Shown here piece by piece: positions 3,537-20,064 of a stretch of DNA of 20,064 nt. The notes beneath the pieces were generated by a model, which made no database searches, was not told the origin of the DNA, and saw nothing but the letters and a program-made list of their open reading frames with translations. Made by a program: the position numbers and the translations under genes. Position 1 is the first letter of the stretch; every line of letters begins with the position of its first letter. Origin of the DNA: a virus; IMG/VR virus record IMGVR_UViG_3300027631_000178, positions 1-20,064 of that record, one strand, 5' to 3'.

Positions 3537-5285
3537 ATGAATACTAAGTTAGATAATATTATTAACCCATCGGAACAAGTCACAAAGACCGAAGGTAGGA
3601 TTAAATCACAAATAGAATCTGGTGTAGAAGTATTTGATGTTAAAGTAGACCTTCTACAATACATGCGTCAAACGGAGAGAATACGACACTCAAAGATTAA
3701 AGTAGAACATAAGTTTCATTTTGAAGATATTGAAGAACAAGATTGTTTATTAATGCAAGTTCCCAATATCAATGAATCGGGATACTATTCTGGTATAGTA
3801 GGTTTAAAGACCTATATAGATAAGTTCCATCCAGATTTAAGAGTTGCAATCATTGACCCTGTTATAGACTATTTCTTTTTAAACCCTCCTGATAAGAGTA
3901 GTGATTTCTTTAATCATTTTAATACTTACTCTCGTCAAGGTGAATACCATATACTATATAAGTACAAAGAGATATTGGATATCGCATATGGTTTTGTTGG
4001 TAGATACATTGAGAAAGCAAACCCTGCATTTTTAGGATTTAGTGTTATAGATGGTAACATAGATGCCACACTTGCTATTGCACGATTAATAAAAGAAAAA
4101 TATCCTCACATTAAAATACTAATGGGTGGTAATGGTATAGAAGTGTTAGACTTTGGTAAATTACCCAATACACAATATAAGACAAAAGAATATACTTTTA
4201 TCGATGCGTTTAGTAGAGGTGATGGTGAAATGACATTAGTAGAAATACTTAAATCCGATTGGAGTGAACAATCCTTAATGAATATAAAAGGTTTAGTGTG
4301 GAATTGTAATGGTGTATTCATACATAATAAGACACGACCTAATATTGATATGGATTCTTTACCTTTCCCAGACTATTCATCGTTAGAAGATAATTACTAC
4401 TATAAATCAACATACCAATATAACGTACCTTTGGTAATGAGTAGAGGATGTCCTTATAGATGTTCTTTTTGTTCAGTACCTGATTTTATACCTGAGTTCC
4501 GTTATCGTACAATTGATAATGTAATTGAGGAAATAGAACATTGGGTTGCAAAAGGTCAAACAAATTTCTTTTGTCACGATTCTATCATTAATGGTAGTCC
4601 AAAATGGATTAAAGCATTTTGTGAAAAAATTATCGAAAAAGGATTAAAGATTACATGGGGTGGTAATATGAGACTACAAGCTCCAATGAGAGATTTGGAA
4701 ACTATGAGATTATATCGTAAGGCCGGCTTGATGAAAATGATTACTGGCTTTGAGTCTGCATCCGAACCTGTCCTTCGACATATGAAGAAATATACCGATA
4801 CACAAGGTGTAAGAGAAATATTTGAAAATGTTCGTACCATTAATAGTGAGAACGAATGGCCGATGCAATTTGCAATGCAGTTGATTATTGGTTATCTAAA
4901 CGAAGGTGAAGATGATTTTCAAAAAACATTGGACTTTGTTGAAGAATTTCACGATTGTATGGCAGAAATCTTAACTTGTTCAGCATTCTTAATTCACCAA
5001 CCTTTACTAATACGTTGGAGAGATGAGGAAAAACAATGGATTGAATATCATAACGGAGTAAACTTTTCAACAAAATGGAATACTCCTTTGGATAGATTGG
5101 ATAGATTAGAACGTTCGGAAAAATTATTTAAAGAAATTGGTATACCTTATTCAATCTATAATAGAGGATTATATTTAGAGTTAAAAGAAAAATTAGTTAT
5201 TGAAGAAAATCAAAAAGCATCGGAAAAAAGAAAACAAGAAGATGAAGCATTTTTCAAATTATATCCTGATTTAAAATTATTATAA
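3537..5285 (+). CDS. B12-binding-domain radical SAM enzyme
   Basis: A 582-residue protein. Residues 100-245 form a B12-binding-like Rossmann domain with family hallmarks (LGFSVIDGN near 166, LMGGNG near 195, FSRGDGEMT near 225). The radical SAM core follows, with the cluster motif SRGCPYRCSFC giving Cys305, Cys309 and Cys312 in CxxxCxxC spacing, and a GFESASE segment near 404 that fits SAM contact. The last 100 residues are helical and charged. These enzymes use a 4Fe-4S cluster, SAM and often cobalamin for methylation or rearrangement of unactivated carbons; the substrate here is unknown and the exact DxHxxG cobalamin ligand motif is not visible. It is first in an operon with two small membrane proteins and two sulfotransferase-like proteins. 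If the leaderless start is not used, Met43 is the next candidate. Confidence 0.92.
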   Translation: MNTKLDNIINPSEQVTKTEGRIKSQIESGVEVFDVKVDLLQYMRQTERIRHSKIKVEHKFHFEDIEEQDCLLMQVPNINESGYYSGIVGLKTYIDKFHPDLRVAIIDPVIDYFFLNPPDKSSDFFNHFNTYSRQGEYHILYKYKEILDIAYGFVGRYIEKANPAFLGFSVIDGNIDATLAIARLIKEKYPHIKILMGGNGIEVLDFGKLPNTQYKTKEYTFIDAFSRGDGEMTLVEILKSDWSEQSLMNIKGLVWNCNGVFIHNKTRPNIDMDSLPFPDYSSLEDNYYYKSTYQYNVPLVMSRGCPYRCSFCSVPDFIPEFRYRTIDNVIEEIEHWVAKGQTNFFCHDSIINGSPKWIKAFCEKIIEKGLKITWGGNMRLQAPMRDLETMRLYRKAGLMKMITGFESASEPVLRHMKKYTDTQGVREIFENVRTINSENEWPMQFAMQLIIGYLNEGEDDFQKTLDFVEEFHDCMAEILTCSAFLIHQPLLIRWRDEEKQWIEYHNGVNFSTKWNTPLDRLDRLERSEKLFKEIGIPYSIYNRGLYLELKEKLVIEENQKASEKRKQEDEAFFKLYPDLKLL

Positions 5286-5286
5286 T

Positions 5287-5559
5287 ATGAAATTAAAGAT
5301 ACTAACCGAAAAAAGGGTAAAATGGATGGAGCATGTAGGTGTAGCAATGAGAGTTATTGCATTTGGTACTCTTTCTATTATGGGACCTGATACACCATTT
5401 CTTGCAATGTGGATATGGAATACAATAGACGCAGTTATTCTTACTTATGCTGCATGGGAAAGAGATAATAAAGCATATCTTATTTTAAATATTTTCTGGA
5501 TGATTGTCGGATTTGTTGGAATTTATACATCAATTTTTGGAAATGGACTCTCCCACTAA
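5287..5559 (+). CDS. Small integral membrane protein (90 aa)
   Basis: A 90-residue protein with a short basic amphipathic N-terminus (MKLKILTEKRVKWMEH) and about three hydrophobic segments: residues 18-33 (VAMRVIAFGTLSIM), 38-56 (PFLAMWIWNTIDAVILTYA) and 64-84 (YLILNIFWMIVGFVGIYTS). A conserved-looking WIWNTIDAV motif and a charged WERDN loop separate the last two. It starts one base after the stop codon of the radical SAM gene, so it is co-transcribed and probably coupled. Small tryptophan-rich membrane proteins of this type recur in large phages without known function. It may anchor or transport for the pathway, but that is a guess. Confidence 0.72.
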   Translation: MKLKILTEKRVKWMEHVGVAMRVIAFGTLSIMGPDTPFLAMWIWNTIDAVILTYAAWERDNKAYLILNIFWMIVGFVGIYTSIFGNGLSH

Positions 5560-5698
5560 AAGTATAAAGGATATTATAACCATTATAATACTCATTCCTG
5601 TCATTTTACTTACTACCTGTGGTGCTACAATCTATTGGGTGTGTAAGTTTCCGTTTTGGTATATAGAGAGGAAAAAATGGTATAGAAAGAGTAAATAA
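5543..5698 (+). CDS. 51-residue single-pass membrane protein
   Basis: I chose ATG5543 (MDSPTKSIKD...), because the in-frame ATG at 5504 would overlap the preceding gene by 56 nt rather than 17. The protein has a polar start, one long hydrophobic segment (about residues 11-34, IITIIILIPVILLTTC onward) and a strongly basic aromatic C-terminus (WYIERKKWYRKSK). It would sit in the inner membrane with the basic tail in the cytoplasm. It follows another small membrane protein and precedes two sulfotransferase-like genes in the same transcription unit. No family recognised. Confidence 0.62.
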   Translation: MDSPTKSIKDIITIIILIPVILLTTCGATIYWVCKFPFWYIERKKWYRKSK

Positions 5699-5704
5699 AG
5701 GTAT

Positions 5705-6268
5705 ATGGTATTAAAACGATTTACATATAAAAATGGATTAGATATAATAGCACCTTTAAAATGTGGCACCCGTTGGTTAGAAGAAAAAACAAATCCAATT
5801 AAAATGCAAGAATTCAATAATGTAAATCTTATGCAGAATCCGATGACCGGAGTTACAAATAAAACTTATTGGATATATAGAGATGGTAAAGACCATTTAG
5901 TAAGTGCATTGAGAACTGAAATCAGAGATGCAATCGAGTTTCGTAAAGAAAATACAAATTCAATAATAGATGAGTTTATAAATGGAATAGGTACACATTG
6001 GTCTCCTGAATTATATAAATGTATGTATTCATATTGGAATCGTGTAGAATTGAATCCAATACATTTAAACGATTTGTCAAATTTATTTATTGGAATAGAA
6101 TATGATTCAAAAAATTATGATATGCACCACTATGATAAAACTAAACATACAAAAGAGGATATTGTTAAATTAGTTGGTTCTATCAAAATGAATGAATTAT
6201 ATAAACTATTAGATAAGGATATTATTTGGTTGGATAAAATATTCAATAAAGAACACACTTTAATTTAA
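5705..6268 (+). CDS. Sulfotransferase-like protein A
   Basis: A 187-residue protein. Near the N-terminus, IIAPLKCGTRWLEE (residues 14-27) resembles the phosphosulfate-binding loop of sulfotransferases (PKxGTTSL type). YWIYRDGKDHLVSALRTEI (55-73) resembles the second donor motif, in which an Arg and a Ser of an RxPxxRxxSA-type sequence bind the 3'-phosphate of PAPS. The family would transfer sulfate from PAPS to a hydroxyl or amine. It is short for the family (usually 230-300), so the acceptor region is minimal. It forms a pair with the next gene, which shares both motifs. Known: motif roles. Inferred: activity. Alternatively it is a degenerate member with a non-enzymatic role. Confidence 0.62.
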   Translation: MVLKRFTYKNGLDIIAPLKCGTRWLEEKTNPIKMQEFNNVNLMQNPMTGVTNKTYWIYRDGKDHLVSALRTEIRDAIEFRKENTNSIIDEFINGIGTHWSPELYKCMYSYWNRVELNPIHLNDLSNLFIGIEYDSKNYDMHHYDKTKHTKEDIVKLVGSIKMNELYKLLDKDIIWLDKIFNKEHTLI

Positions 6269-6276
6269 TTTAAACG

Positions 6277-6990
6277 ATGGATATAGGAATTTATTGTGGA
6301 AAATGGATACTACCCGCTAAAAATGGCACCCGTTATTTAGATAAAATTTTTAATGCAAAATCACAAGGTAATTCAAACGACTTATTAAATAATGTTTCAA
6401 AGGGGAAACGGGTTAAAAACAAATGTGTTATACAATCTCACGAATTATATATGTTAAGTGAAACCAATGTTACTCACCTTTTTATAAGAGAACCAACAAC
6501 TCAATTACAATCTGCACTATATACGGATTTGTGGGGGCATCTAACTATCGAAGAAAGAAAGTTAGGATTAACAAATGAAAATATTAGAATAGTAGAATTA
6601 CTTAACTCATACACAGTATTTGGTACAGGTCATTGGTGTTATAATTTATATCAATCTTTATATTGGTTATTAAAAGCTAAACCTGATATAAAAATATTAC
6701 CCCTTTCCGAATTGACACCATTTATGGAATCTTTAGGATATTATGAAAAATATAATCCGAATGACTATAATTTTAAAAATCCAACTGGTGATGATGTATC
6801 AATGGACATTATAAATGTAACTCGTATTGATTTATTTAGATGGTTATCGAAAAACTATCCAAAACAAATTAATAATATTGTTACATTATTAATGACCGAA
6901 ATTTCCTATTATAATAAAATAATCAATAAAGATTTTGAGGATGAGTTACCCAAAGTAAAAAAACTTATAAAAAAATTTAAAATTATTTAA
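6277..6990 (+). CDS. Sulfotransferase-like protein B
   Basis: A 237-residue paralogue of the preceding protein. WILPAKNGTRYLDKIF (residues 10-25) corresponds to the donor-binding loop and THLFIREPTTQLQSALYTDL (66-85) to the 3'-phosphate motif, with Arg71 and Ser79 in the expected places. The shared Gly-Thr-Arg (GTR) after the loop, where canonical enzymes have GTT or GTS, suggests a distinct phage subfamily. Its length is more typical of a complete sulfotransferase domain. A GTGHWCYNLYQSLYWLLK segment corresponds to IGTHWSPELYKCMYSYW in protein A, a second conserved region and possibly the acceptor site. It is the last gene before the next promoter. Substrate unknown. Confidence 0.65.
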   Translation: MDIGIYCGKWILPAKNGTRYLDKIFNAKSQGNSNDLLNNVSKGKRVKNKCVIQSHELYMLSETNVTHLFIREPTTQLQSALYTDLWGHLTIEERKLGLTNENIRIVELLNSYTVFGTGHWCYNLYQSLYWLLKAKPDIKILPLSELTPFMESLGYYEKYNPNDYNFKNPTGDDVSMDIINVTRIDLFRWLSKNYPKQINNIVTLLMTEISYYNKIINKDFEDELPKVKKLIKKFKII

Positions 6991-7022: not shown

Positions 7023-7074
7023 ATTAAAATAGATTATAATCATATTTATAAGGGAATATAAATAACAAAACAAT

Positions 7075-8997
7075 ATGAGAGCAGTTCTAACAGGTACAGA
7101 CCTTTTAAAAGATATCGATGGTTCGTTCAAGGCCATTGAAACTAATACAAATATACAAACAGCTGTCGATGCAAATATATATTTTAATCAAAATGATTTT
7201 AATACTCTTATTTCTTCATCGGTAATAAACGAAATAGTTTTAATTTCAAAATCAGAATTAAATTTAATTGTAACCGATGTTGAGTTAAATCAAAATAATG
7301 AAATTATTTCATATACAGGAATGGAAGACCTTTCTGTATTTCTAAAAAAATATTGTCAAACTAAAAGTATAACGTTTACACCAATTATTGTTGATAAAAA
7401 CGCCGTTACCATTCCGTTTGTAGAAGATACTGATAATAAGTTGATTATTAGAATTGCATATGATACCACCGCAATCATTGATGATATATATGCAAAAGAC
7501 AATTGGGAATTTCTTAAATTAATGTACGATACCGATGTGAATTCAATACCAAAAACATATATAAACGATGAAGAATTGGGGTTTGATTCTATTGGTACAA
7601 CAATTAGAGACAATGGTGGCCACCCCAATTTTTTAGTTAAAAAAAGATTTACTCCTGCAGATAATAGAACATTTCCAAAAGTATTAAAAATAAATACAAT
7701 TGAAGAATTGGAAACAGTAAAAACATCATTAGATAGTGAAGAATATTTACAAGAATACATTTATAACCCAAATGATTTAATAGATAATAGAGTAAAATTT
7801 TATAGAAGTGTTGATTTAATATATGGTTCAAATTTAGATATTTTAAATCTATGGTGTGTAGAACATGGAAATTCTTTTGAAATTGATTCAACCTGTGATT
7901 ATGATGATAATAACATGGTGCAATATTGGGAAAGGCCTAAATATATTTATAAATTTATTAATTCAGGTGACAAAGACCCACACTTATCAGGGGATGAAAA
8001 CACAATTGTATTATTAGAAGATAACACAAAAATTAACCTGTCTGCATTAGAAACTAATTCAGTAATTAAAACGATTGCAATACCAAATTTACCAATAAAT
8101 GAATTAGATTATTCATTAAGTGAATGGTCATCATCGTATACCGATTTTATAAACAATTATCAAACCGATACTGCAACTTTAAAAAGTAAACATTTACAAG
8201 AAAATTGGATTGGATTTTTTATTGAGATAGAGACAACCGATGGGATTAAATTTTCCGATGTGAGTCAAGCTACAATATTGTGTAAAGTTTTAGAATCCGG
8301 TTCAATGGATAATTATATAGTAAAATTTAAATTATATACCGATATAAAAACAAACGATATTTTATTATTGTTTGATACCGAAACATCAACATTTGCCGAC
8401 AAAATTATTGATAATATTAAAATATCATATAATATGGTAGATGTGTATAGAACGGATTTTGAACAGATAGATATTTTCTTAACTATGGAAGAATCTGAAA
8501 ATTCAAGATGGGGTATAATGACACATAATTACGATTTTGATTGTAGAGAAATAGGGTATTTTCCCTATTGTTATGATTGTGGTAGTGGTAATCAATCATG
8601 GCATGGAGTTACTGGATGTTGTAGATGTGCTTCTTGGTATGGAGGGTGTAGTTCTATTGGAACTGCCACTTGTTATGATGTTGATGCAAATTTTTCAAGA
8701 GTTTGTGACTATTATGCTTATTGTAATGCAAATAAATCCGACAAAAGATTAAAGAAAAAAATTAAACATACTAAAACGTTAGAAAATGGAATAAAACTTT
8801 ACACTTTTGAATTCAAAGAACATTTTATTAAAAAAACAATATCACTATATAACGAAGATATGAGTGGTATTTGGGAAGGTGTTATGGCTCAAGATTTAAT
8901 AGGAACACCATATGATATGTACGTTAAATTAGAAGAAGATGGTTATTATTCGGTAGATTATAAAGGGTTAGGAATTAAATTAAATAAAATAAAATAA
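7075..8997 (+). CDS. ATP-grasp-like domain fused to a Cys-rich segment and an S74 self-cleaving chaperone
   Basis: A 640-residue protein. Residues 1-110 resemble a pre-ATP-grasp domain. Residues 124-275 resemble an ATP-grasp fold: a RIAYDTTAIIDDIYAKDN segment, HPNFLVKK (183-190) as the nucleotide-binding lysine strand, INTIEELETVK (206-216) and YLQEYI (224-229). Residues 300-480 are an unrecognised, probably beta-rich region. Residues 490-550 carry ten cysteines (CYDC, CCRC, and others) with many Tyr, Gly and Ser. Residues 555-638 are a clear S74 intramolecular chaperone: SDKRLK with the Ser555/Lys560 dyad, EGVMAQDL and DGYYSVDYKGLG. S74 domains trimerise phage fibers and then cleave themselves off. 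The S74 call is firm; the ATP-grasp call is pattern-based. Such a fusion is unusual: either an enzyme rides on a virion appendage or the N-terminus is an ATP-grasp relative used structurally. Confidence 0.8.
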   Translation: MRAVLTGTDLLKDIDGSFKAIETNTNIQTAVDANIYFNQNDFNTLISSSVINEIVLISKSELNLIVTDVELNQNNEIISYTGMEDLSVFLKKYCQTKSITFTPIIVDKNAVTIPFVEDTDNKLIIRIAYDTTAIIDDIYAKDNWEFLKLMYDTDVNSIPKTYINDEELGFDSIGTTIRDNGGHPNFLVKKRFTPADNRTFPKVLKINTIEELETVKTSLDSEEYLQEYIYNPNDLIDNRVKFYRSVDLIYGSNLDILNLWCVEHGNSFEIDSTCDYDDNNMVQYWERPKYIYKFINSGDKDPHLSGDENTIVLLEDNTKINLSALETNSVIKTIAIPNLPINELDYSLSEWSSSYTDFINNYQTDTATLKSKHLQENWIGFFIEIETTDGIKFSDVSQATILCKVLESGSMDNYIVKFKLYTDIKTNDILLLFDTETSTFADKIIDNIKISYNMVDVYRTDFEQIDIFLTMEESENSRWGIMTHNYDFDCREIGYFPYCYDCGSGNQSWHGVTGCCRCASWYGGCSSIGTATCYDVDANFSRVCDYYAYCNANKSDKRLKKKIKHTKTLENGIKLYTFEFKEHFIKKTISLYNEDMSGIWEGVMAQDLIGTPYDMYVKLEEDGYYSVDYKGLGIKLNKIK

Positions 8998-9166: not shown

Positions 9167-9454
9167 ATGTTACAGAAATTTAAAGAAATAGCTAGTGCGT
9201 GGATAATTGCTCACAATCCAACAAACGACCAAAAAATATTAGCAGAAAATAGATTTATTATTTGTGATAATTGTCCTTCTAAAAAAGTTTTTTCGGATAA
9301 AATTAAAATTTCAATATTATGTAATGAATGTGGGTGCCCAATATCTAAAAAAATATTTTCACCAGAATTCAACCCATGTCCATTAAAAAAATGGGAAAAT
9401 GTTGATAAAACTTTTTACGGAAACACACAAAAAAAATCTAAAACTTTTTTGTAA
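9167..9454 (+). CDS. Phage zinc-ribbon protein (six Cys)
   Basis: A 95-residue protein with a CxxC pair (Cys33, Cys36), then CNECGCPISKK (Cys52, Cys55, Cys57) and a final NPCPLKKW (Cys71). The pattern 'CxxC...C-x2-CGC-x4-K...CPLxxW' is a small zinc-ribbon type I know from many phages and prophages (the DUF6171-like kind), with four of the cysteines probably binding zinc. A helical N-terminus precedes it (KFKEIASAWIIAHN). Function is unknown even for well-conserved relatives. Its stop shares a base with the next start (TAATG), so it is coupled to the glycosyltransferase-like gene. Confidence 0.75.
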   Translation: MLQKFKEIASAWIIAHNPTNDQKILAENRFIICDNCPSKKVFSDKIKISILCNECGCPISKKIFSPEFNPCPLKKWENVDKTFYGNTQKKSKTFL

Positions 9455-10743
9455 TGTTACATAAAATATATGTACACCATTATTATACAAAATCATTATT
9501 TTATAAATTAGCACATAACACCAAAGATAGAATATATAATATTCAAAATGAAAGAGGTAGTGTTAAATGTTCATTCAACAATATTGAATTAGAGTTCATA
9601 TTTGAACCAGAAATAAATGATAATGAAGATGGTTATCATTTATTAGATTTTCTTACAATACTTTATCAATTAAATAAAGACGTAAAATTTAATTCAATTG
9701 ATTGTTTTAATAAAAAACAAGGTGAAGATGCCCATAGAGGAAAGTGGGGTGCAGAGTTTGGTGTTAACGATGTACCACTAATGAAGTGGATATCCGATAC
9801 ATTAAAAGATAAAAAAGATTGGTTAGTATGTTTATTCAGAACTGAAAAATCTTTTATTAAATACGATGGTATACAATATTTTCCAATTTCAGATTTAGAA
9901 ACTCAAATAGATAGATTAAAAAATCATAAAATAATAAGTGATAATTGTTTTATAAATGATATTATTGAAGAAAAATACACAAATCATTTTTTTGCATTAA
10001 CCAACACAATACATGAGTGGAATGATTTATTATCCATTCGTTGGTATTATGAATTTAAAAATATATTTGAAAAATTAAATCAACCATATGATTTATGTTT
10101 TTCAATGAGATACCACAAAAGAAATAGAACGGCAATAATAAATGGTTTAGCCAATTTAAATAATTCAAAAATTTATTTATCAAGAGTAGATAATTGTATA
10201 AATAATGAATATTCATTATATGGTAAAACAATTAAAAATAATAATATAAATTTTAATATAACAAATGGTAATGATTTTAATGATATAAGTTGGATTGAAA
10301 ATATTGAACATTATTTAGATTATCTAATGAGAATTTTACCACAAGCCAAAATGCATGTTTTATCGGAAACATGGGATTGGGTGCCAGGAAATTTAACATC
10401 TAATTATTTATCGGAAAAAACATATGGTTTAATATTAGCAAATATCCCATTCATATCAACACACACATATCCATTGGATATTTTACAAAAAATATTAGGT
10501 GTTGAAAAACATCCATTTTATGAAGAATCTAAAAATTCTATTAATAATCCAATCAAATTTGTAGAATTTATAAAAAACTTTATGAAAAATTTTGAAATTA
10601 ACAATAATTTGTGTATATTATGGACAAATAAATGCCACACATTATTAATAGAAAAAATTAATAATGAAAATTCATTATTAAATATGATTCTTAATAACTT
10701 TGAAAAAAATGAATTTAAACCAATATCAAAAAAACTAATATAA
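9454..10743 (+). CDS. Glycosyltransferase-like protein (exostosin/fucosyltransferase-type C-terminus)
   Basis: A 429-residue protein. The best diagnostic part is residues 319-355: LSEKTYGLILANIPFIS, then TYPLDILQKILG. This matches the nucleotide-sugar-binding tail of exostosin and alpha-1,3-fucosyltransferase-like enzymes (SEKT near the start, a PFI strand, then a leucine-rich stretch). Two GT-B lobes would be residues 1-210 and 215-400; SMRYHKRNRTAIINGLANL (217-235) starts the second. It would transfer a sugar to a protein, lipid, DNA or surface glycan; sugar and acceptor are not evident. It is coupled by one-base overlaps to both neighbours, a zinc ribbon and a sulfotransferase-like protein, which suggests a shared glycan or protein target. 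The call rests on one motif region. Confidence 0.62.
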   Translation: MLHKIYVHHYYTKSLFYKLAHNTKDRIYNIQNERGSVKCSFNNIELEFIFEPEINDNEDGYHLLDFLTILYQLNKDVKFNSIDCFNKKQGEDAHRGKWGAEFGVNDVPLMKWISDTLKDKKDWLVCLFRTEKSFIKYDGIQYFPISDLETQIDRLKNHKIISDNCFINDIIEEKYTNHFFALTNTIHEWNDLLSIRWYYEFKNIFEKLNQPYDLCFSMRYHKRNRTAIINGLANLNNSKIYLSRVDNCINNEYSLYGKTIKNNNINFNITNGNDFNDISWIENIEHYLDYLMRILPQAKMHVLSETWDWVPGNLTSNYLSEKTYGLILANIPFISTHTYPLDILQKILGVEKHPFYEESKNSINNPIKFVEFIKNFMKNFEINNNLCILWTNKCHTLLIEKINNENSLLNMILNNFEKNEFKPISKKLI

Positions 10744-11579
10744 TGTTTGTTATAGAAAATGAATTAATATTTGTATCAGTACCTAAAAATGCTAGTATGG
10801 CCGTACATTATGCATTAGAAGAATCTACAATTAATTTTGAACCTGCATTTAATTATAGTGAACTTATTACAAAAATCAATTCCCATTCACCAAATTTTAT
10901 ACATCAATTTTCAAATAAAAATCATAAAATAAAAATACACATGCATTATACTACTGCAGATATGTATTCAATGTTAAACAAAAAATTACCAACAATTTTT
11001 ATAAAAAGAGACTATTCAGAAAGATTCATAAGTGCACTAAATTATATTTTTAATTTTAGATTACCACTTGCATATCCAGAATTAAAAAACATATTACATA
11101 ATATTGACAACGATTGGATTTATAAAAATATAAATAAAGACGATATAACAAATATAAAAATATTTAACCCAAGTGAAGATAAAATTTATATAGATGGTAA
11201 AATAGACTCACCACAAGATTTAGTACATAGAAATATAATAAATTCATTAAATAAGTTTTTAAAAAATAAAATAAAATTAAAAAATACAATGGTACAAATT
11301 AATGAACCATTTCCAAAAAATAAACACATTAATTTTAAAATGTTAGATTCACAAGAAATATGGAAAAGCGGCCACAACCCGAAACATATTTTTGATATAA
11401 AAGAATTAAATAAATTAGAAGAATTTATAGAAAATAAATACGAAAAAGAATTTAAAATAAAAAATATAAACACATCCGCCGACATCGATATTAGAACAAA
11501 TTTTGTTAATGATACTAAATTAAGAAACTGGGTTTGGGATAATTTTGAAAAACATCATTTTATAAAAAGAATATTTTAA
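10743..11579 (+). CDS. Sulfotransferase-like protein C
   Basis: A 278-residue protein with the clearest sulfotransferase pattern of the three. IFVSVPKNASMAVHYAL (9-25) has the VPKNAS loop of the Sulfotransfer_2 type, and PTIFIKRDYSERFISALNYI (83-102) supplies Arg89 and Ser97 of the 3'-phosphate site. Length is normal for the family. A later YNPK-type segment (SGHNPKHIFD near 205) may contribute to the acceptor site. It shares no stretch with proteins A and B beyond the motifs, so it is a separate lineage. Coupled to the glycosyltransferase-like gene upstream and 4 nt from the oxygenase gene downstream, it probably sulfates the same target. Codon use is strongly AT-biased, like the rest of this operon. 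Confidence 0.7.
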   Translation: MFVIENELIFVSVPKNASMAVHYALEESTINFEPAFNYSELITKINSHSPNFIHQFSNKNHKIKIHMHYTTADMYSMLNKKLPTIFIKRDYSERFISALNYIFNFRLPLAYPELKNILHNIDNDWIYKNINKDDITNIKIFNPSEDKIYIDGKIDSPQDLVHRNIINSLNKFLKNKIKLKNTMVQINEPFPKNKHINFKMLDSQEIWKSGHNPKHIFDIKELNKLEEFIENKYEKEFKIKNINTSADIDIRTNFVNDTKLRNWVWDNFEKHHFIKRIF

Positions 11580-11583
11580 ATAT

Positions 11584-12150
11584 ATGAAATATAAAAAAAA
11601 TTATTTTAGTAAAACAGAATGTAAAAAAATTATTAATCTTCATAAAACCTATAAAAATTTTGGTTTTAATTTTGATTGGTATAAAAATACATACGATGAG
11701 AATAATAGAAGGGAAGGGGGAACAAGTAAATTCCACGCATATTTAATTCCAAACTCACCACATACAAAGTGGTTATTTGATAGATTACAAATATTCTTAG
11801 AAGAAAGTACCGGCCTAAAATTTATAAAAAATATCGATTGGTGTCAATTATATAGATACGAAACCGGCGATGTATTTCAAAAACATATAGATTTGGCTGC
11901 ACAATATCCAAAAAGAAGATATAACCTAGGTGTTAATTTAAATGAAAATTATGATGGTGGAGAATATTATTGTTGGCCAGGTGATGTAGAGGATGATAAT
12001 GTAGAAATAATACCTAAAAACGCCGGTACGATATGTGTCTATCACTCTAGACAATTACATGAGATAAAAGAAATAACCAAAGGTATACGGTGGTCTCTAG
12101 TCATTAAAATAGAATCTGATTTTATAAATGAAAAAGTAAACATTATTTAA
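11584..12150 (+). CDS. 2OG-Fe(II) oxygenase (prolyl-4-hydroxylase-like) 1
   Basis: A 188-residue protein with the full facial triad and co-substrate arginine. His101 and Asp103 are in KHIDLAAQYP, His159 is in SRQLHEIKEI, and Arg169 is in KGIRWSLVIK. The double-stranded beta-helix strands between them carry NLGVNLNENYDGGEYYCW, where the DGGE turn is typical of P4Hc-type enzymes. These enzymes hydroxylate protein or small-molecule C-H bonds using O2 and 2-oxoglutarate. Short single-domain versions are abundant in large marine and freshwater phages, mostly of unknown substrate. It is immediately followed by a second oxygenase, so two oxidations of one substrate are plausible. Confidence 0.9.
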   Translation: MKYKKNYFSKTECKKIINLHKTYKNFGFNFDWYKNTYDENNRREGGTSKFHAYLIPNSPHTKWLFDRLQIFLEESTGLKFIKNIDWCQLYRYETGDVFQKHIDLAAQYPKRRYNLGVNLNENYDGGEYYCWPGDVEDDNVEIIPKNAGTICVYHSRQLHEIKEITKGIRWSLVIKIESDFINEKVNII

Positions 12151-12152
12151 TT

Positions 12153-12803
12153 ATGGATAAAATTTATTATGACGATACCACATATATTTGGAAAACAAAG
12201 TTAAATTTTGCAAAACATAAAAAAAGTCTAATACAAATAGCAAAAAATTTAATGCAAAACCCAGACGGAAAAAAATGGGATGGATACGAATATAAATCTG
12301 AAACGGAAAATATTAATTTTATTGGTGATTTATTAATACAAAATACTTTTGATGATATAGTTCAAATGGGTATTAATTTATGTAAAGAATTGTGTAAAGA
12401 GACAAGTACACAATATAATAAATTAAATTATGAAGCATGGGTAAATGTTGTTCGTTCAAAAAAACCAAAGCAAAATGCATTTATTAATAATAAATTAAAA
12501 GATATAGACAAATACCATTCACATACAGAATTGAATGAAAAAAGAAAAATATTTATACCGATGTATACATTTGTATATTACATACAAATGCCAAATATTT
12601 TAGAAGGTGAAGACGGCGTATTATATTTTAAAGGAAATAATAATAAAGAATATTGGATATTACCCGAAGAAGATGATTTAATTATTATGCCTGGTTATAT
12701 GCCCCATGCACCAAATAACGCTCCAAAATCAAAAATTGATAGGATTGTATTAGCGGGAAATATTGGGTTTGAATATTTAAAAATTAAAAAAAGTATAATA
12801 TAA
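12153..12803 (+). CDS. 2OG-Fe(II) oxygenase-like protein 2 (HxE variant)
   Basis: A 216-residue protein with the layout of the phage '2OG-FeII_Oxy_5'-type family: NYEAWVNVVRSKK (92-104), HSHTEL with candidate ligands His124 and Glu126, YTFVYYIQMPN (138-148), EGEDGVLYFKG (151-161), MPGYMPHAPNN with His185, and DRIVLAGNIGFE with Arg197. The first motif reads H-T-E rather than the usual H-x-D, which is tolerated in some family members. It starts 2 nt after the preceding oxygenase gene. Sequence similarity between the two is low, so they are not a recent duplication. The fold call is good; activity depends on the HxE ligand being functional. Confidence 0.78.
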   Translation: MDKIYYDDTTYIWKTKLNFAKHKKSLIQIAKNLMQNPDGKKWDGYEYKSETENINFIGDLLIQNTFDDIVQMGINLCKELCKETSTQYNKLNYEAWVNVVRSKKPKQNAFINNKLKDIDKYHSHTELNEKRKIFIPMYTFVYYIQMPNILEGEDGVLYFKGNNNKEYWILPEEDDLIIMPGYMPHAPNNAPKSKIDRIVLAGNIGFEYLKIKKSII

Positions 12804-14761: not shown

Positions 14762-15148
14762 ATGATTTCTTATGATTTCAACGGATTATTCGATGAGTTT
14801 TTTCCAATCGAGCAACCAAAGACAAGAACAACGTATGTTCCAAACAAATTCGCAGTAGACATTAAAGAGGATTCTGCAACTCTAGCATTATCAGTATTAG
14901 GACACAATCCAGATGATATTGAAATTAATTGCTTTGAGGACAAAATTGAAATTAAAGCTAAAAAGACAAAAGAGGATAAAGAAAATCCTTTTAATCAATT
15001 AATTTCAGATATTGAAGAACGAATACAAGTAGGTAAAAACTTTGATGGAAAAAAATCAAAAGCTGAGATTAAAAATGGCATTCTCTTAATTACCATCGAA
15101 AGAAAAGAAGAGTCCAAACCAAAAAAATTAACCTTAAAAGTTGGTTAA
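14762..15148 (+). CDS. Hsp20/alpha-crystallin small heat-shock protein
   Basis: A 128-residue protein. The alpha-crystallin domain starts near residue 27 with NKFAVDIKEDSATLALSVLG and continues through NPDDIEINCFEDKIEIKAKK, a typical beta-sheet pattern, to the C-terminal KAEIKNGILLITIERK. The GILLITI segment corresponds to the G-V-L motif that ends the domain. The N-terminal YDFNGLFDEFFP is a short membrane- or client-contact segment. It would act as an ATP-independent holdase. Phage Hsp20 genes are well known in T4-like viruses, where they may aid virion protein folding. It has its own weak promoter signal, and a strong terminator ends within 60 nt of its stop codon. Confidence 0.93.
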   Translation: MISYDFNGLFDEFFPIEQPKTRTTYVPNKFAVDIKEDSATLALSVLGHNPDDIEINCFEDKIEIKAKKTKEDKENPFNQLISDIEERIQVGKNFDGKKSKAEIKNGILLITIERKEESKPKKLTLKVG

Positions 15149-16631: not shown

Positions 16632-17027
16632 ATGAAAAAATACGCATTATTTATAGGAAGGTGGCAAACGTGGCATAAAGGTCATGAGTGGTTAATAAAT
16701 CAACAATTAGAGAAAGGAAAGAATTGTTGGGTAGCAATTAGAGATGTTCAAAAAGATGAGAACAACCCTAAATCAGCACAAGAGGTATTACAAGAATTAC
16801 AAAAAGAACCATTTTTTACACAAAATTGGGATAAAATTTTATTATCAATAATTCCAGACATTGAAAGTGTAAACTATGGTAGAGGTGTAGGTTATGATGT
16901 AATCTATCACGAACCACCAAAAGAAATCGAACAAATTAGTGGAACTGCTATTAGAAAAAAATACATAGACTCCAATGGAGATGTGATTGTTTACAACATA
17001 GATAACGAAGATGTTAGTAGAGCGTAA
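16632..17027 (+). CDS. HxGH nucleotidyltransferase (NMN/APS-kinase-associated type)
   Basis: A 131-residue protein with the cytidylyltransferase-superfamily site: GRWQTWHKGH (9-18, the HxGH motif) and ISGTAIRKKY (102-111, the ISSTxxR-type motif). IPDIESVNYGRGVGYDV (74-90) is a segment I recall from phage and cyanobacterial enzymes annotated as NMN adenylyltransferase-like or associated with APS kinase. It transfers a nucleotidyl group to a phosphate or a phosphorylated substrate. It starts 4 nt after the -7 box of the promoter. The next gene, DUF2061, overlaps it by 17 nt. Known: family and motifs. Inferred: a role in sulfate activation (PAPS) or in NAD supply. Confidence 0.8.
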   Translation: MKKYALFIGRWQTWHKGHEWLINQQLEKGKNCWVAIRDVQKDENNPKSAQEVLQELQKEPFFTQNWDKILLSIIPDIESVNYGRGVGYDVIYHEPPKEIEQISGTAIRKKYIDSNGDVIVYNIDNEDVSRA

Positions 17028-17223: not shown

Positions 17224-17859
17224 ATGAAATTAATAGTTGACAAAGGTTCTAATGGATTAACAACAAAAGAGTTTACGGAGTATCTTAAAACTCCTATATT
17301 AAAGTCGGAAATAACTCAACAAGAAGCCGATGAGTTAAGGTTACAATTAAATGAAGCTTTGGAAAAGAATCCAGGATTAGGAATTTCGGCAACTCAAATA
17401 GGAATTAAAAAAAGAGCATGTTTAATTAAATTTGGTGATGAAGAATTATTCTTAGTAAATCCAATTATAACGGAAAAATCAAAAGAAGGATTTCTATTCT
17501 ATGAGGGTTGTTTATCAATCCCTTCAACTTTAACAAAACCAATTAGAACCATACGTGCATCCAAAGTTATTGTACAAACTGATAATTTAGGTGAATTAAC
17601 ATTTGAAATTAATCCAGAAGGTGATAAAGCAAATGAATCGGTATCAAAGGAAACAATGATGACCGTTATAGTTCAGCATGAAATTGACCATTTAGACGGA
17701 TTCACAATTAAAGATAGAGTTTATAATACACAAGTAGTTAAAAGACAAACTTATGGTAGAAATGAAAAGATTGTAATGAAATCAAAAGAAGGAGAATTAA
17801 TTGAAGTTAAATTTAAAAATGCAAATAAATTCTTTTTAGAAGGATACGAAATAGTTTAA
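17224..17859 (+). CDS. def: Peptide deformylase
   Basis: A 211-residue protein with all three deformylase motifs: GLGISATQ (51-58, GxGxxAxQ), EGCLS (94-98, with the metal Cys96) and QHEIDHLDG (151-159, HExDH, metal ligands His152 and His156, catalytic Glu153). It removes formyl groups from new N-terminal Met. The C-terminal 50 residues extend past the minimal phage forms, and the N-terminal 40 are a little longer than average. Phage deformylases are common in large marine phages and are thought to speed maturation of phage or photosystem proteins. It lies 4 nt after DUF2061 and 2 nt before the next gene, in the leaderless operon. Confidence 0.95.
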   Translation: MKLIVDKGSNGLTTKEFTEYLKTPILKSEITQQEADELRLQLNEALEKNPGLGISATQIGIKKRACLIKFGDEELFLVNPIITEKSKEGFLFYEGCLSIPSTLTKPIRTIRASKVIVQTDNLGELTFEINPEGDKANESVSKETMMTVIVQHEIDHLDGFTIKDRVYNTQVVKRQTYGRNEKIVMKSKEGELIEVKFKNANKFFLEGYEIV

Positions 17860-18821: not shown

Positions 18822-20064
18822 ATGGTACAATTAGGTTTATCAGCATTTTATCATGATTCTGCGGCAGCATTAGTTATAGATGGTAAAGTTATATGTGCAA
18901 TTGAAGAGGAGAAACTATCCGGCGAAAAACATGATAGTTCTTTTCCGTTTAAAGTAATCCAATGGTGTTTAGAATACGCAAAAATAACAATTGATGAAGT
19001 TGATATGGTTTGTTGGTATGAAAATCCAAACGATAAATTCGAAAGAGTTAGAGAAACAATTGGTAAGTGGGGTGGTTTACGATTTCCAATGAAATGGAGA
19101 CAATTCTTAAAAAGATGGAATGAAACGGAAGGTAATTTAAAAGGAATATTGAAATCAATTGGATATGATGGTATTATTACTTACACACACCACCATTTAT
19201 CACATTTAGCACTCTCATATTATACATCACCATTTGATAGAGCAATTGGTTTGTCAATTGATGGAGTTGGAGAAAGGCATTCGGTATATGCCACAATGTG
19301 TGATGACAAAGGATTTCATAAAATACAAACACTACACTTTCCATATTCATTGGGATTAATATATTCGGCATTTACGGCATATTTAGGGTTTAAACCAAAC
19401 GAAGGTGAGTATAAGGTTATGGGACTTGCACCATATGGTAATAATCAAAAATATAATAACATATTTGATAAAGTTGTTACTACTGGTGGTGAAACCGATA
19501 TTGTAAAGATGGACATGTCTTACTTTACATGGCATACATCGGATAATGATATGTTTCACCAAAAACTCATTGATTTAATTGGATTTCCTCCACGATTTAA
19601 AGACGAACCAATCGAACAACATCATAAAGACTTAGCTGCATCATTACAACAATGGTATGAAGGTGCACTATATTTTATCATCAATAGAATTACAAATAGT
19701 TGGGAATCTGAAAACTTAGTATTAGGTGGTGGGTGTGCATATAATGGAACCGCCAATGGTAAGATAAAAACAGCTACATCAATTAAGAATGTATTCATAC
19801 CATTTGCACCTTCGGATAGTGGTTCTGCAATTGGTGCATGTTTATATCAACATCATATTGTAATGGGTAATCCAAAAGTAAAAGGTGGTGATAATCAATC
19901 TCCATATTTGGGTGAGGAATGGAGTAACCCCGAATTACTTAAAATTATATTACAAAATCATAGAAAAAAAGTTGTAATGTTTGATACCGATGAAATGTTG
20001 TGTAAAGAAGTTGCAAGATTAATTAATGATGGTAATATTATAGGTTGGTTTCAAGGTAGAACCG
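18822..20064 (+). CDS. NodU/CmcH-type carbamoyltransferase, 3' end outside the window
   Basis: The visible 414 residues cover the N-terminal, Kae1-like part of an O-carbamoyltransferase. GLSAFYHDSAAALV (5-18), HHHLSHLALSYYTSPF (123-138, with the metal-type His residues), LSIDGVGE (144-151) and GEYKVMGLAPYG (near 197) are all family hallmarks, as is LVLGGGCAYNGTANGKI (near 305). The enzyme moves a carbamoyl group from carbamoyl phosphate, via carbamoyl-AMP, to a hydroxyl. Nearly identical layouts occur in antibiotic, nodulation-factor and phage proteins. In phages it may carbamoylate a modified base or a glycan. The gene runs off the window edge, so the C-terminal domain is not seen. Confidence 0.93.
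   Translation, partial: MVQLGLSAFYHDSAAALVIDGKVICAIEEEKLSGEKHDSSFPFKVIQWCLEYAKITIDEVDMVCWYENPNDKFERVRETIGKWGGLRFPMKWRQFLKRWNETEGNLKGILKSIGYDGIITYTHHHLSHLALSYYTSPFDRAIGLSIDGVGERHSVYATMCDDKGFHKIQTLHFPYSLGLIYSAFTAYLGFKPNEGEYKVMGLAPYGNNQKYNNIFDKVVTTGGETDIVKMDMSYFTWHTSDNDMFHQKLIDLIGFPPRFKDEPIEQHHKDLAASLQQWYEGALYFIINRITNSWESENLVLGGGCAYNGTANGKIKTATSIKNVFIPFAPSDSGSAIGACLYQHHIVMGNPKVKGGDNQSPYLGEEWSNPELLKIILQNHRKKVVMFDTDEMLCKEVARLINDGNIIGWFQGRT

Follow-up and report, generated by a model that had tools for sequence, protein, structure and literature searches.

We interpret the gene described here as encoding a precursor that processes itself to give a disulfide-rich and probably tailored peptide, and we hold this reading with moderate confidence. 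The gene lies in a 20,064-base stretch of DNA (here called the window) from an uncultivated aquatic virus of bacteria (IMG/VR), and its product is predicted to carry, in this order, a permuted ATP-grasp domain, a Hint domain, a Cys-rich core, and an S74 domain (Table 1).

Table 1. Features of the window, numbered from its first base
Feature	Position	Strand	Details
TATTTATA promoter-like element	7043..7050	+	25-32 nt before ATG
Precursor gene	7075..8997	+	Open, 640 aa; permuted ATP-grasp, Hint, Cys-rich core, and S74
Circularly permuted ATP-grasp domain (predicted)	7075..7953	+	Residues 1-293; AF2 fold and Foldseek
Metal-binding hairpin D9...E22-x-N24-T25	7099..7149	+	D9, E22, N24, and T25 invariant in 68/68; at the N terminus (permuted)
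Motif R126-x2-Y129-D130-x-T132-A133-x2-D136-x2-Y139-x2-D142	7450..7500	+	Conserved in 68 sequences: R126, D130, A133, D136, Y139 100%; T132 99%; D142 94%; Y129 90%
K189, putative ATP-binding lysine	7639..7641	+	Invariant in 68/68; model strand 186-190
Hint (Hedgehog/intein fold) domain (predicted)	7978..8529	+	Residues ~302-485; without Cys1
H484-N485, predicted Asn-cyclization cleavage site (after N485)	8524..8529	+	His-Asn in 81/81 complete relatives
Cys-rich core peptide	8530..8736	+	Residues 486-554, 69 aa, 10 Cys
S74 chaperone-like domain	8737..8994	+	Residues 555-640, Ser555/Lys560
Zn-ribbon-like partner	9167..9454	+	95 aa, C33xxC36...C52xxC55xC57...C71; PHROG 13558
B12-binding radical SAM protein, candidate tailoring enzyme	3537..5285	+	PF04055 1.9e-14, PF02310 3.3e-5
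Sulfotransferase-like P-loop protein, candidate tailoring enzyme	10743..11579	+	Cluster in 53/68 loci; named by motif, no Pfam match
2OG-Fe(II) oxygenase-like, candidate tailoring enzyme	11584..12150	+	PHROG 61 at 9.7e-9; cluster in 58/68 loci
2OG-Fe(II) oxygenase-like, candidate tailoring enzyme	12153..12803	+	PHROG 81 at 2.1e-10

The protein family and its permuted ATP-grasp domain

Relatives were recovered from IMG/VR scans and from one MAG contig, giving at least 83 distinct proteins including that of the window; one of the IMG/VR scans contributed the best 80 of its 170 confirmed stretches, and the family must therefore extend beyond 83. The contigs carrying these genes reach 288,673 bases (289 kb), and a match to T4-type gp23 was found in 7 of the 18 long family records checked, with 6 of them above the family cut-off. 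Two diverged copies of the precursor gene (L135 and L140) were located ~38 kb apart in one phage, on the same 211,168-base contig. The window also encodes an Hsp20 (14762-15148), a peptide deformylase (17224-17859), and a NodU-like carbamoyltransferase (18822-20063), as in marine T4-like phages, and searches for Rfam families and tRNAs in the window gave no hits. The window protein had no match among 50,697 isolate phage records, and the distant members L079 and L084, when compared with isolate phages, gave either nothing or only matches of the second Hint domain to RNR inteins and other short matches. Direct Pfam and PDB-sequence searches with the whole window protein returned a weak S74 match or nothing, and the fused architecture had no match among the same isolate records, Pfam, PHROGs, and predicted viral structures. 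The family is common in environmental phages, large, and without annotation.

Upstream of the gene we noted a short element, TATTTATA, which was present within 45 nt upstream of 48 of 74 family genes versus 13 of 791 other open reading frames and showed no enrichment over the whole window. The same element also precedes some genes near gp23. Taken with its enrichment before family genes, this indicates that the precursor gene is probably transcribed from a phage promoter of its own, and TATTTATA may serve these phages as promoter. It is not itself the T4/cyanophage late promoter (TATAAATA/NATAAATA), of which it is the reverse complement, and a scan of the window for sigma-70 patterns gave matches at chance level.

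The initial annotation had called the N-terminal part ATP-grasp-like, and this was borne out by the predicted fold. An AF2 model of residues 1 to 300, built from an alignment of 68 relatives that are 27 to 73% identical to the window protein, had a pLDDT of 91.7 and a pTM of 0.85. Its best PDB matches in Foldseek were yeast glutathione synthase (5.8e-6), Escherichia coli YjfC (3.9e-5), homoglutathione synthetase (1e-4), and a putative gamma-glutamylcysteine synthetase, with E values for the best set ranging from 6e-6 to 9e-4 and modest TM-scores of 0.39 to 0.43 by query length. The predicted fold thus confirms residues 1 to 293 as an ATP-grasp domain of the circularly permuted glutathione synthetase/YjfC class. 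In the model, strands 2-12 and 18-24, which form the metal-ligand hairpin, come first, and this position at the very N terminus would correspond to the element order of the permuted eukaryotic glutathione synthetase, a known ATP-grasp permutant according to the title of Polekhina 1999 (cited in PMC2213659). YjfC and YgiC are named as peptide-spermidine ligases in PMC12568646, which cites Pederick 2023 on this point, and the database annotation agrees.

At the level of primary sequence the similarity was much fainter. Alignment with YjfC/YgiC using hhalign was weak (E of 0.023), yet the metal motif lined up (YjfC MDFAW..KLLEYN versus TDLLKDIDGSFKAIETN). None of the curated ATP-grasp Pfam models matched the window protein, and RimK and ATPgrasp_ST each matched one family member at E values of 0.03 to 0.05. 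A PDB profile search with the 68 sequences gave no match, a BFVD fold search with the ATP-grasp domain gave nothing significant, and the N-terminal domain was likewise absent from PHROGs. Sixteen alignment columns were invariant across the 68 sequences (M1, D9, E22, N24, T25, P114, R126, D130, A133, D136, Y139, P184, N185, K189, P201, and R244), a pattern that an active enzyme would be expected to keep. As for the ATP-site residues that the domain had been expected to show, the metal-binding acid/Asn set (D9, E22, and N24) was found, together with a putative ATP-binding lysine (K189), one of the two looked for.

A Hint domain, a Cys-rich core, and an exchangeable C-terminal end

Between the ATP-grasp domain and the cysteines, the initial annotation had placed a middle region; such a region exists, and what had been overlooked is that it appears to be a Hint domain with an invariant His-Asn end. 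When the full-length model was compared with the PDB in Foldseek, approximately residues 300 to 490 matched 4o1s (2.0e-7), hedgehog 1at0 (3.8e-7), and the BIL domain 2lwy (TMt of 0.82); this region had 45 PDB matches at an E value of ≤0.001, and the matches listed were inteins, hedgehog, and BIL domains. In intein chemistry, Cys1 or Ser1 carries out the N-terminal step, and His-Asn together with F:13 supports Asn cyclization and the C-terminal cut (PMC4031507). In all 83 members, the domain is free of Cys over its first 28 residues, and position 1, read by eye, is His in the window and His, Lys, Arg, or Ile in relatives; the block-B His is replaced by Gln in the window and in L010. The F:13 position, as aligned by eye, is Asp in 64 and His in 12 of the 81 relatives (76/81). 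The loss of the N-terminal nucleophile and the retention of the Asn-step residues point to C-terminal cleavage alone and suggest an Asn-cyclization cut after N485. The +1 residue varies freely (Tyr, Pro, Ser, Ala, and others), as would be expected if no ligation followed cleavage. The ATP-grasp part, which had been thought to remain in the mature product once the S74 domain was lost, would then probably be cut off as well. Two relatives, L085 (open reading frame 5270-6673) and L086 (6001-7404), end five residues past His-Asn (R[IF]EKI), and no separate Cys-rich gene was found in their surroundings; retention of His-Asn with so little after it means that the pair could instead be structural.

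The stretch that follows was said to contain ten cysteines, and exactly ten were counted between residues 486 and 554. Across the family, Cys makes up 13.5% of the core compared to 0.6% of the body (22-fold), so the richness in Cys is not due to chance; Trp, Tyr, Gly, and Pro are also more frequent there. Nearly all members have ~26 to 109 residues after His-Asn, with ~26 to 50 being typical of members that lack S74. The number of cysteines between the predicted cuts is even in 79 of 80 members, whose sequences are related by descent, the sole exception being L103 with 7. Even numbers together with free spacing favor disulfides, to judge from these sequences. The core tails diverge faster than the bodies but retain their cysteines, and the tail dN/dS is often 2 to 3 times the body value and never above 1. 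In the pair L046/L047, the bodies are near-identical (pS of 0.05) and the tail pS is 0.48, and the tail was apparently swapped. These values led us to reject diversifying point selection on the tail, since exchange by recombination fits better, and a diversity-generating retroelement was also rejected because the changed codons were not A-specific. No separate Cys-rich peptide genes were recognized nearby besides that of the Zn-ribbon-like partner.

The C-terminal domain was assigned to S74 with a Ser555/Lys560 dyad in the initial annotation, and both residues are present at the S74 spacing. Pfam PF13884 matched the window protein weakly, at an E value of 0.2 with the whole protein and 0.016 with residues 539 to 640; its score of 16.0 bits is below the cut-off of 22 bits, which the close relative L001 exceeded (6e-5, 23.7 bits); PHROG 6121, “virion structural protein,” matched residues 554 to 630 at 3e-5. 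The third module is variable. Among 80 members, 17 have S74 with the pattern SD-x3-K, 57 have nothing, and 6 have a second Hint domain (Hint-2). Where present, S74 starts directly after a Lys or after a Lys plus one or two residues, and a Lys lies within 4 residues of the predicted cut in 17/17. L010, which is ~61% identical to the window protein, stops with YCNHQK* where S74 members read YCNxxK|SD, so its stop coincides with the predicted S74 cut, and no S74 remnant was found 3′ of the stop. Hint-2 follows the core in L104, L107, L117, L153, L080, and L084. In the first four of these it matches Pfam Intein_splicing (1e-9 to 9e-14) and has Cys1 and a His-Asn near its end, and in L080 and L084 it ends in VYD, not VHN. 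For L117, splicing is predicted to yield PCYCNGWNCGTWYCESFCVACTGG-FEKKA, which is similar to the tail that L118 encodes directly, SCWCPWNYCGYFCNSYGCPGCGGGGFEKA; removal of Hint-2 from L107 or L117 would leave 29-residue, 6-Cys peptides ending in EKKA, and direct tails end in FEKA or FEKV. Three different ends would thus converge on one predicted type of peptide, and since most relatives lack S74 and end after the Cys-rich tail, the idea of a fiber is not required.

Neighboring genes

Gene neighborhoods were counted over 68 less redundant loci. The gene of the Zn-ribbon-like partner was present in 62 of these, always on the same strand as the precursor gene, with 51 of 64 copies within 400 bp and all six cysteines 100% conserved; its product is possibly a redox, zinc, or chaperone partner. 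In addition to the clusters given in Table 1, a second sulfotransferase-like cluster (named by its P-loop motif, not by HMM) was found in 38/68 loci, SGNH-like proteins (assigned by eye) in 45/68, a Trp halogenase (PF04820, 1.9e-87) in 21/68, APS kinase (PF01583, 2.5e-19) in 18/68, and radical SAM proteins in 15/68. The radical SAM protein of the window has a homologue, 73% identical, only near L081, and this gene is apparently mobile between these clusters. The window also has a small nucleotidyltransferase-like gene (16632-17027); with the APS kinases that lie beside sulfotransferase-like genes in relatives, it possibly belongs to a phage sulfation pathway.

On 18 long records, all 8 Trp halogenases lay within a few kilobases of the precursor gene, as did 35 of 53 2OG-oxygenase matches within 7 kb, where 6.1 were expected. 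Trp occurs in the core at 18 of 18 halogenase loci for which the upstream sequence was long enough versus 15 of 29 loci without a halogenase (Fisher 2.5e-4, a comparison confounded by phylogeny). The isolates HTVC008M, S-PM2, and S-RIM44 carry halogenases without the precursor gene, and we therefore rejected a halogenase role confined to that gene and offer halogenase action on the core only as a suggestion. Since 2OG-oxygenases also occur in phages that lack it, the enzymes of the cluster may have other virion proteins as their targets. One publication describes the proposed role of cyanophage prnA as speculative (PMC2984593), and the proteusin brominase SrpI provides the closest precedent for ribosomal-peptide halogenation with a folded leader (PMC10858898).

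Proposed processing route, rival explanations, and known systems

We propose the following route. The Hint domain, having no N-terminal nucleophile, would sever the core by Asn cyclization after N485. S74 would then fold the C-terminal side and release itself by a cut before Ser555, so that a peptide of 69 residues with 10 Cys and the ending YCNANK is left; in relatives, in which the place of S74 is empty or held by a splicing-type Hint-2, the product would look alike. The ATP-grasp domain, as a member of the glutathione synthetase/peptide-spermidine ligase class, would catalyze amide bond formation on the peptide, in the simplest case at the C terminus, acting either in cis while the core is still attached or in trans once it has been released. 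In the last step, the weakest of the route, oxygenases, sulfotransferase-like proteins, the radical SAM protein, and, in relatives, Trp halogenases might decorate the Tyr/Trp-rich core. The product may be a virion-displayed binder or a secreted peptide.

The features that might instead suggest a virion adhesin are the S74 domain itself (17/80 members), which is usually a chaperone of fibers or spikes, the match of PHROG 6121 to it, the occurrence of TATTTATA before the precursor gene and some genes near gp23, and the fast-changing, apparently exchangeable tail. The Cys-rich region would then be a trimeric receptor-binding tip, trimerized by S74, with the ATP-grasp and Hint domains as an assembly module that is removed or kept. 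We consider this explanation rather unlikely, given that 63 of 80 relatives have no S74, that many tails are only 26 to 50 residues long with no fiber shaft anywhere, that a tip has no need of an invariant enzyme active site, and that no recognized tail gene adjoins the gene in the window. For the Cys-rich part, the initial annotation had left a choice between a metal- or disulfide-stabilized tip and a peptide modified by neighboring enzymes. Of these, disulfide bonding is likely and the modified peptide is favored over a plain fiber tip, and it may have a virion role. A secreted anti-competitor or effector peptide that resembles a bacteriocin and is not a virion part would share with our preferred route a small, disulfide-rich product with variable loops and tailoring-type neighbors, but no export or immunity gene was recognized and several long records have a T4-like phage setting; we regard it as the least probable of the explanations considered.

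The remaining explanation denies processing altogether. If the Hint domain were domesticated and inactive, His-Asn would be structural, the protein would stay uncut, the ATP-grasp domain would act elsewhere, and the Cys-rich tail would be a metal- or substrate-binding appendage. The loss of Cys1 and block-B residues, the near absence of sequence after His-Asn in L085 and L086, and the CxxC pairs, which could bind Zn, are in its favor. On the other hand, His-Asn is kept in 81/81 relatives down to 27% identity though the N-terminal nucleophile is lost, the even Cys numbers and nonconserved spacing favor disulfides, and the interchange of S74 and Hint-2 as modules at the C-terminal end speaks for processing; we regard an inactive Hint as unlikely. 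Returning to the self-processing precursor, its most far-reaching form would be a new class of phage-made ribosomal peptide with ligase, self-cleaving leader, and core in one polypeptide, in which the ATP-grasp domain joins an amine (a polyamine, an amino acid, or the peptide's own N terminus) to the C terminus of a disulfide-rich core freed by Hint and by S74 or Hint-2, and in which a phage halogenase, sulfotransferase-like protein, and oxygenases decorate the core. We put this form forward as an improbable speculation; it would give the unexplained tryptophan halogenases of phages a substrate. Should the self-processing precursor as such prove right, modified disulfide-rich peptides would be encoded by phages themselves via an autocatalytic route, and the core is a candidate substrate for the tryptophan halogenases (prnA) and the many 2OG-oxygenases of phages.

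Several known systems resemble parts of this protein. The predicted ATP-grasp domain is like eukaryotic glutathione synthetase, homoglutathione synthetase, and GspS-YjfC-YgiC in fold, in element order (the D..E-x-N hairpin first), and in its best PDB matches; unlike the glutathione synthetase/YjfC ligases, to which it is ~10% identical, it has no Pfam or PHROG match, is shorter, and is fused to a Hint domain and a Cys-rich core. Graspetides also pair an ATP-grasp enzyme with a ribosomal peptide, but theirs are encoded by separate enzyme and precursor genes and have no Hint, whereas the window has a glutathione synthetase-type permuted fold in the same polypeptide. The graspetide enzyme is RimK-like and not permuted, and the combination of a RimK-type ATP-grasp partner with a separate precursor is not found for the window protein. 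The S74 domain shares its Ser/Lys dyad and C-terminal position with the Peptidase_S74 fiber chaperones, but it is attached to a 69-residue Cys-rich peptide, not to a long beta-helical fiber, and is missing in most relatives. With inteins and type A BIL domains the protein shares the Hint fold and the C-terminal His-Asn, and its +1 Tyr is as in a Magnetospirillum BIL (PMC4031507); unlike them, it has neither Cys1/Ser1 nor a +1 nucleophile, so class 1 or BIL type A splicing would not occur and the Asn step alone remains. Borosin precursors of the omphalotin type likewise hold a modifying enzyme and a C-terminal core in one polypeptide (PMC7878506), but they use an N-methyltransferase where the window has an ATP-grasp domain, and they have no Hint and no Cys-rich core. 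Among known cases of an enzyme and its core sharing one chain, the borosin precursor comes closest (PMC7878506); neither it nor SrpI has a Hint domain. The component folds are known, and their combination in a single chain appears to be new.
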